Assembly (NCBI RefSeq): GCF_964275005.1
Contig: NC_092695.1
Span: 7,283,832-7,347,831 of the forward strand
Length of the DNA stretch: 64,000 nucleotides
Direction of reading: 5' to 3'
Source: Diadema setosum
Taxonomy: Eukaryota; Echinodermata; Echinoidea; Diadematoida; Diadematidae
Position numbers and translations under genes: made by a program. Below are positions 26,001 to 29,000 of the stretch, piece after piece (positions within the stretch are counted from its first letter, which is position 1; every line of letters starts with the position of its first letter). The notes beneath the pieces were generated by a model. It saw only the letters and a list, made by a program, of their open reading frames with translations, had not been told where the DNA came from and searched no databases.

Positions 26001-29000
26001 TTGTATTTCTTTCCATTTTCCAAGCTCTGAAATATAATGAAAAATGTTTCTTCTTCATAATTTTCACACTAATTTTGCACCAAAATCTAGATGTAATTGA
26101 TACAAATTATTTTACTAATGTTCAGCTTTATATTGTGCACTGTATTCATAGCTCATACTGTTTCACATCTTCACTCTATATTAATTTATGCAAACATCTG
26201 TTCTTTGACAGTATTCCATTGCCTGAACTCAAATCAACAAAAGAGCTCTCTGTTGCCAAGGAGAGAGTGCCCTCATACCAGCAGTGGCGATGATAGGATG
26301 GCCGACTCTCTGTGACCAGCCGACGGGGTGGATCCAGGGCGACGTCTCCTGGAACCAGAAGTCCTTGCTAGGATCCTTACAGTTCTCGTATTGCACGTGG
26401 ATGCGGTTGGCCACTGTCTCTATGACCGTCCCCACGATGGTGTGGGAGATTTGCCGCTTATACACCGCCTCCAGCTGCATGCCCTTCTTGAACTTGCATT
26501 GGAGGTAGTCCTGTGGTGGTCAAAGGGTTAACAACATTATGACCTGTATGTCTATCAGCCAGATTAATTAAGCTTCACAATGACATTGGTTAGAAATCTG
26601 AAAGTTTCCGACTGACTCTTAAGGTAGCAGCTGATTTACAATTTGTCCTTTATCCACGTAAATAAACACCGATTTAGTGTTTGAGTAAATAGTCATGATA
26701 AAACTCATGGACATACACACTCGAGTTACACTGACTTTTAAACACTGCTTATTTAGTGTTTTATTTAGAGTAAATAGCCATGATAAAATTACTTTTGAAT
26801 TTAAATGATTTTTAAAGTTTTTGCATTACACACAAATAGGCCAGTTTACTAATGATATGCATAATGATGTCACACCCCACGCGACCCTAGTGATTGTAAC
26901 TAACTCGGGGAAGCAAAAGCGTGGACACCACATTGTTTTTACATTCACGCATGTATTGTCTACAATCGTTACTCGCTGCGGATAATCGACAAATTTTGTT
27001 TGCTATGATCTTGCTTTGTGATGGCTTTAGCTTCAAGTTCTAGCCAAAGTTTGAGCAAGCCATGGAAGGATTGGACAGTTAAGGAATTAACTGAGTATTT
27101 GAGGGATAGAGGTGTGAGCACAAGCAGCTACAACAAGGAGAAACTCATCAAACTTGCAACTGCCATAGCCGATTTGGATTTGCCCATCGATCCCGACCTC
27201 TCCCGGGCGGACACCGGCCGGTCAATGCAGGAGAAGCTCGCTCGGGTTGGCTGCTCATTCTCCAATCCTACCAAGCTTGCTGGGTTTACATCCAACTTCG
27301 AGAGTATTCCAGATTTTGGACTCTTTGACATGTTCAACTACCTGATCATCAATCGGACTGGCTATGACTGGAAAAAGCTAAAGGGATACAAGTCATTTGA
27401 GGACTACCATCTTTTCACGGATGGGAATGTTTCAAGCCTGAAGTTCAATGAGGTTTCGGACATGAGCCCTGTTTGTGTTTTCCTTGGTGAGGTTAGGCCG
27501 ACGCAAAAGGACCGGACATACCTCAACAAACCAACGTACCAGACCTGGGTCATGATGAATAAGTCAATGGGGGAAATAAATGTTGCCTACAGCGAATGTC
27601 AGGGAGGGTAGGTCTATCATTGTTTTTGTTTTTAGGTCTACCTCTAGATCTACTCTAGATCTAGTTTATCTAGGGCTAGGGCCAAACTGTTATTGTTAAT
27701 AGAAAAATGGGTCAAAATCGTCATTCTACTTCATGAAGTCTAATCAGTCTGAGTCTAACTTTAAAAAATCCTTTGAAACATATCGATTATGAGAGATTCG
27801 TTGTCTACACCCCCTCCCCCCCCAAAAAAAAAGTTCTGAGAAGTTTAGATTTTACAATCAATCATAATGCTTAAAATCATTGAAGTATGAAGTGAGGCGG
27901 TCATACTGTTGCATGTTCCATAGCAGCAGTGTTTTCCATCCATTTTCAGAAACTACTGAAGACAAAATCGAAACCAAAATTCAACAAAATCGAAACTATA
28001 GTCCAAATTGCGTTTGATCACAGCAGAATTCTCCCTCATCTAAGGTTGGGAATTGATTTACACAACATACACGTAAGTCTACATGTGGGGATGTGTCGGG
28101 GACGGCTGCAGAAGCCGACGTTGCAGGCTCGTATCCTTTGTTTGCCCGAGGTTGCGGCCGTGTGCAAAATTAAAGGTAGGGAATCCCATTTGCATGCCGT
28201 AAATGAAGAGTTGTATAAACACAGTGGTATGTTGAAGAGAGTATCATTTTAGAAACTCCCATAAAGTATTGAAAGTGGAAGGTAACATTTCGTACATTTT
28301 TATTGACCGTTAGATTTTGGATTGAATTTTTTTCGGGGCTCACCGTAAATTCCAGTACATTACTAGGCTACCTTTGCAGACCCATGAACTGCATGTGTGT
28401 CCATCATGTATATTTTGTGAAGAAAGTTCATCAAAACTTACAAACATTTCTACATACATTCTTGCCACACACTCTATATGTTATTACATCAGCTCTTATA
28501 CTTTTAGATTTGTGTTTATAGATAAAAAAAAAAAAATACAGAAGACTGCAACAAAAAGGCTTAAGTGTGGCTGACACACAGAACTACTGAGTAGTTGAGT
28601 TTTGTGCATTATTCAAATTTTAGGTAACTGTTGACTTCCAAATTTCTAAGCAGTGGCCTAAACAAGTCCCCTGAGGTTCATATTTAATGTTTTGCTGCAT
28701 TTTGGGAGGTCTGTAAAAGGTATCCCCTACCTTTAAAGATCTGTGCATATATTAGTAAACTGGCCTATTAAAAATGCATGCTGTGACTACTGTGTACTCA
28801 TGACAGTGTTGGTCCGTCTTCTCGTGTTATAACCAAGACTCACACTGATCCATACCTTGTTCTTGGGCAGCGGTATCGTGGGGCTTCCAGAGTGTGCCAC
28901 TCTGGCTAAATGCTCCTGCCAATTACTGCCCAGTCTTGCTAACACACCTGAATAGAGACAGATAGTTAGAATCGGGATCAATAACTTGTCTTTTTGAAAG

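Follow-up and report, generated by a model that had tools for sequence, protein, structure and literature searches.

A probable ISL2EU deletion derivative in the Diadema setosum genome that retains the first exon of a SAP-SWIM-YqaJ nuclease gene

The closest described relatives of the element analyzed here are the ISL2EU (PHIS) transposons, for which the accessible text of a 2015 survey (PMC4482050) gives an A|AT|T target site with duplication of the AT, terminal inverted repeats (TIRs) of 6-259 bp whose first two bases are usually GG, and a mean length of ~4.84 kb. In that account, the elements encode a transposase combining THAP, HTH, and DDE domains, together with a second gene for a YqaJ protein whose role is called unknown; the words SAP and SWIM are missing from the main text, as far as it was available. 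PIF/Harbinger elements share a related DDE transposase with an HTH and are described, in the portions of the sources at hand, with 3-bp TWA target copies and a Myb/SANT partner protein. MITEs and KP-type internal deletions resemble the present case in having numerous short copies, few full ones, and conserved ends. Against this background, the element described below almost certainly derives from an ISL2EU transposon by internal deletion and is non-autonomous.

The window, meaning the whole stretch of 64,000 nucleotides that was analyzed, lies at C11:7283832-7347831 of the D. setosum genome. Including a nested insertion, the element occupies 26838..28766 on the forward strand and is bordered by AT target-site copies (26836-26837 and 28767-28768), with an A and a T outside them (A|AT|T). 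The left TIR (TAGGCCAGTTTACTAATGATATGCA, 26837-26861, forward strand, drawn with the ambiguous T) and the right TIR (TAGGCCAGTTTACTAATATATGCA as reverse complement, 28744-28767, reverse strand, drawn with the ambiguous A) measure 25 and 24 bp and differ solely by one inserted base, so that the 24-bp inverted repeats reported by the sequence-only reading are present where it placed them. When the 17-bp TIR core was searched with up to three mismatches, these were the only two places within the window (0.14 expected), and two places were also obtained in 1 of 100 shuffles. The 1.93-kb element of the earlier reading is bounded by the TIRs as claimed, and it was its size that needed correction, as 559 bp of the span (28174-28732) form a separate nested element flanked by TTAA at 28170-28173 and 28733-28736 and bearing imperfect inverted ends (AGGTAGGG...). 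This insertion is missing from the sibling copies compared. In a genome-wide DNA search with the element, in which 40 of 1655 candidates were scored and 75 matching pieces obtained, 24 of the 40 main pieces began at the left end (at 1, 2, or 9) and reached 1339, many of them followed by a piece at 1897-1931. As the missing middle of these pieces corresponds to window positions 28174-28732, the transposon proper is ~1.37 kb long, the size of its siblings.

Within the element, exon 1 of a SAP-SWIM-YqaJ nuclease gene lies at 27021..27607 on the forward strand, with SAP-like residues at 15-46 and the first half of a SWIM finger at its end, where the first cysteine has become serine. The 196-codon open reading frame (ORF) noted earlier is there (27021-27608); the 200-codon stop-free stretch that contains it ranks third longest in the window, and Markov simulations of the window element gave a stretch of at least 200 codons in 3 of 2000 runs. 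The SAP-like start named by the earlier reading is weak in this copy, which matches Pfam Ish1 below the Pfam cut-off (E 0.0014), and the majority exon 1 sequence of the 26 copies compared (fetched best matches plus TIR hits, and therefore not a random sample) matches SAP at E 0.0062, with 16.6 bits vs a curated cut-off of 23.9. In a related family, represented by L049 on C1, exon 1 matches SAP at 4.8e-8, above the curated cut-off. The exon ends in AYSECQGG, which reads AYCECQGG in 15 of the 25 other copies, and the four SWIM ligands (CxCx(n)CxH) are incomplete in the window copy, with SEC at the first pair and no exon 2. A GTAGGT splice donor follows at 27608..27613 on the same strand, in phase 2 inside the finger, and is GTAAGT in a two-gene relative on C5. 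The second half of the finger was found in the next exon of this relative, so the half finger that had been suspected at the donor marks a real exon end, with intron 1 splitting the finger. Searches for relatives of the ORF in a viral collection gave nine pattern matches, none of them confirmed, and a phage collection held no match. Two PHROGs matches (0.084 and 0.086), both to families without a known function, were too weak to be considered, and a PDB match to an oxidoreductase at 0.018 was also disregarded. Three exact matches to the TIR core on viral contigs shared one other flanking sequence, were without a second TIR core, and were taken as unrelated.

The genes lost from the window copy were found in the C5 relative (C5:2011287-2021754, L044 and L029), in which a nuclease gene and a transposase gene face each other on opposite strands within 10,468 bp between the TIRs. 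This agrees with the earlier suggestion of an internally deleted copy, and both of the catalytic domains proposed as targets for a search of full-length copies, a YqaJ nuclease and a DDE transposase, are present. The nuclease gene has four exons with in-phase GT-AG borders and a spliced product of 571 aa, with YqaJ (PF09588) at E 1.7e-16 in the exon and 6.8e-16 in the spliced protein. Across the exon 1/2 join, CECQGGADGACRH contains all four SWIM metal ligands (CxCx(n)CxH) and matches SWIM at E 0.0092, with 15.9 bits vs a curated cut-off of 19.6. Exon 1 of this relative alone gave no Pfam match, and Pfam searches found no SAP in the spliced 571-aa protein and no Myb in this second protein. The YqaJ exon is also a distant sequence match to lambda exonuclease (PDB 1avq, E 0.024), which differs in that YqaJ is here joined to SAP and SWIM and borne by a transposon. 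On the opposite strand, the transposase matches DDE_Tnp_4 (2.5e-48), HTH_Tnp_4 (7.1e-12), and THAP (6.5e-7) in separate stretches. Its THAP motif is spread over two frames in this assembly, the start codon lying in one and the remainder of the motif in the other, and the C5 transposase is therefore probably not a working source. We think that this copy, at 10.5 kb, exceeds the published ISL2EU mean through nested insertions, a reading made partly by eye. Also by eye, a long inverted repeat, perhaps a nested MITE, was seen within the transposase gene (L044 6500-7060), as was a frame resembling a gypsy-type retroelement fragment between the two genes (L044 9546-9860).

Comparison with the C5 layout locates the deletion. 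In the window copy, the match to C5 intron 1 extends to 27909, and from 27905 onwards the sequence matches transposase exon 1 in reverse complement; the overlap is a 5-bp microhomology, ACTGT (27905..27909), at which nuclease intron 1 is joined to transposase exon 1. From the left end, the derivative keeps ~1.07 kb, with nuclease exon 1 and a portion of the intron that follows it; on the right, the initial 39 nt of the THAP transposase exon 1 (27905..27943, reverse strand, 13 residues of the THAP domain start) remain together with its upstream region. Everything between is lost, and the start codon regions of both genes are kept. An identical junction was present in 22 of the 26 copies, C5 is undeleted, and the other three, L018, L027, and L028, did not match the junction pattern. 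L024, L025, L026, L037, and L048 had been considered as longer elements and carry the same junction, so their extra length is located elsewhere; by eye, no transposase or nuclease frame was seen among the 14 longest stretches of L024. Judged from the shared junction, the simplest reading would be a single founding deletion. Interrupted gap repair is the usual account of internal-deletion derivatives, and here the deletion probably arose once, during such repair after excision. Its product would then have multiplied in trans, mobilized through its intact TIRs by transposase supplied from full copies, and the window copy would have inserted into an intron of an MBT gene and afterwards gained the nested TTAA-flanked element.

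We next consider whether the retained exon is still under constraint. The start codon is kept in all 26 copies, and exon 1 is fully open in three of them (window, L025, and L029), the same three places at which the whole exon is open among the protein-search matches listed. Twelve of the 26 copies share a +2 frameshift at 27154 and a -1 frameshift at 27372, and 11 of these 12 also share a -10 at 27500; the first of these falls at codon 45, where the SAP-like stretch ends. Such a pattern could be expected if a truncated exon 1 product (196 aa, with a stop at the donor) had been kept as a KP-like repressor that binds the ends and blocks transposition, and the universal start codons, the three whole frames, and the position of the common frameshift all speak for this reading. 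The substitutions speak against it. Measured against the majority sequence of the older group, changes in the window copy number 4 at 130 synonymous sites and 15 at 458 non-synonymous sites, which is a neutral ratio, and the step to the frameshifted subgroup involved 1 synonymous and 12 non-synonymous changes. L025 and L029 have 7 synonymous and 8 non-synonymous changes each, and as similarly low ratios occur in copies with broken frames (6 and 8 in L013, 9 and 9 in L014), these values are no proof of constraint. In a divergence table of 16 copies, which includes nine of the 12 frameshifted ones, these nine lie 0.9-2.3% from the consensus vs 4.6-6.1% for the other seven, where the consensus itself leans to the nine, whose terminal branches in the tree are also shorter; it is this short-branched subgroup that has the broken frames. 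The window element does differ from MITEs and KP-type deletions in keeping a 196-codon exon start, and we found no sign of selection on a product, where a KP-like system would have a truncated DNA-binding product under selection. A retained repressor is accordingly very unlikely. With a neutral ratio and the first finger cysteine lost, the window copy is drifting, contrary to the earlier impression that its codons were maintained up to the splice point, and most likely it neither yields a functional protein nor benefits the host.

The target site was examined at filled and unfilled positions. AA preceded TAG at all 18 element ends listed, giving filled sites of the form AA-TAG...CTA-TT with a pattern that excluded the flank, and AAT...ATT was found in 21 of 22 extracted copies (L018 has AAG), with an extraction pattern that itself favored AAT...ATT. 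For the empty-site test, joined flanks were built with an AATT center for the insertions L017, L019, L021, L022, L024, and L041, and 16 alignments were obtained; the unfilled paralogous sites carried AATT in 8 of these and a one-base variant in 7 (AATC twice for L017), ungapped at the site. In the remaining alignment, of L017 with L035, a 15-base gap begins at the target site, and gaps close to the site occur in several L024 alignments and in one of L041. AATATT, which a TA duplication would need, appeared in none of the 16 alignments. The family, as read from these sites, is one that inserts at AATT and leaves AT on both sides, and AG-ends with an AT duplication are inseparable by sequence from TAG-ends without duplication. 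The AATT of the empty sites agrees with the A|AT|T published for ISL2EU (PMC4482050).

The TIR length is within the ISL2EU range, and if AT is copied the ends read AGG or AGA, vs the usual GG. The AT target copies in A|AT|T, the transposase with THAP, HTH, and DDE domains, and the YqaJ second gene are all features reported for ISL2EU in the accessible text of PMC4482050, from which the window copy differs in having neither gene whole. Neither the TWA target copies nor the Myb/SANT partner of PIF/Harbinger was found here, where sites are AATT and the Pfam search of the second protein gave no Myb match. Spy elements, which insert at AAATTT without a target copy and have one ORF, were rejected, as AATT has varied flanks in this family and there are two genes. 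The earlier reading had also raised an unfamiliar transposon class, in which the SAP-SWIM-YqaJ protein would be the element's own enzyme, acting without a DDE transposase. This might be suspected from the window element, where all that is seen is a SAP-like motif with half of a SWIM finger, and from the occurrence of the nuclease gene in three families, and it is rendered highly improbable by the THAP, HTH, and DDE_Tnp_4 transposase between the same TIRs on C5. In addition, six of the ten genomic YqaJ places (C5, C1 near 23.6 Mb, C16, C58, C17, and C3) have a related transposase match less than 15 kb away, the two facing each other at all of these but C3. The window copy is an ordinary, dead ISL2EU copy, a new family member among animal cut-and-paste transposons of a kind already known.

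What is possibly new is the SAP-SWIM-YqaJ layout of the second ISL2EU gene. In the C1 family (L049), the YCSCFAG end of exon 1 is followed by a GTAAGA donor in phase 2, and LGSSCNHVAALVF opens exon 2; YqaJ matches at 8.4e-22, and SWIM weakly at 0.051. For the C16 family (L050), tblastn and inspection by eye placed ECNCCIG and then ATCKHIAALLF between a SAP-like stretch and the YqaJ-like part that comes last. The intron in the SWIM finger has the same place and phase in both families whose splice sites were checked (C5 and C1), and from the three families read (C5, C1, and C16), SAP-SWIM-YqaJ with a split finger seems to be older than these families. Many animal proteins in databases combine SWIM and YqaJ. 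A SAP-SWIM-YqaJ transposon protein was not described in the accessible text of the open-access literature searched, including PMC4482050 and PMC9179366. It is conceivable, if rather unlikely, that the second gene encodes a conserved three-part accessory nuclease whose SAP and SWIM parts direct the lambda-exonuclease-like enzyme to the element's ends, coupling cut-and-paste transposition to end resection and homology-driven repair. If so, the second ISL2EU gene would have a job, and the rise and takeover of microhomology deletion derivatives would also be explained; the relatives described here offer a concrete entry to the question of what use an exonuclease is to a DNA transposon.

Searches of the whole genome to which the window belongs (912,680,840 bases, 913 Mb, in 102 contigs) place the element in a widespread family. 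The left-end 28-mer was found at 144 places vs none for the control, and the right-end 20-mer, with up to three mismatches, at 321 vs 127 for the reversed control, counts far enough above the controls to indicate a repeat family and not chance. These 144 left ends compare with one transposase and one YqaJ exon in the window element's own family; the next best transposase is 51% identical (15 matches genome-wide) and the next best YqaJ exon 34% (10 matches). No intact transposase was seen in the family, in which the C5 gene with its THAP motif in two frames is the only one, suggesting that deletion derivatives have almost displaced the source gene from which they came. The earlier identification of a transposon is borne out by these TIR-bounded, recurring copies, and of the outcomes named beforehand as refuting it, a single-copy ORF or TIRs missing from other loci, neither occurred. 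A single-copy, syntenic host gene lying by chance between inverted repeats, for which the long open frame and GC-richer third codon positions might be cited, is scarcely credible given at least 162 exon 1 matches genome-wide (150 of 410 candidates scored), most of those listed with stops, and the apparently neutral frame of the window copy. A TIR-like site (TAGACCAGTTTACTAATATA and variants) was also observed without the element interior at L030-L034, L040, L042, and L043; at L033, a second, inverted TIR-like site lies ~230 bp away, and a short related MITE is possible there.

The element sits between two exon regions of an MBT gene on the reverse strand, each with an MBT repeat, at 26229..26516 and, upstream of the element with respect to host-gene orientation, at 29277..29531 (MBT repeat at 0.019, below the Pfam cut-off). 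The nuclease exon is on the opposite strand, in agreement with the antisense intronic position proposed earlier. The label Sfmbt was not supported, as both exons match solved structures of L3MBTL better (8e-35 vs 2.1e-26 for the first and 3.4e-6 vs 0.0019 for the second), with MBTD1 ranking between the two, in what is a weak test due to the few Sfmbt sequences in the PDB. The host is perhaps an L3MBTL-like MBT gene.

No Pfam match was obtained for a 1045-aa frame elsewhere in the window (17495-20629). Several copies of a short repeat whose ends read TACTGTAAAAGTGG...CCACTTTTACAGTA occur at 1864-2021, 3858-4015, 12305-12462, and 31666-31823 (and at 2095-2185 and 14028-14118), probably a MITE family unrelated to the ISL2EU element. 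One segment is present in two diverged copies (79-87% in pieces) at 124-458 and 9232-9576, ~9.1 kb apart, units of 32, 65, and 129 bp form a tandem array at 9873-10306, and AGA is repeated 64 times, perfectly and consecutively, at 40030-40221.
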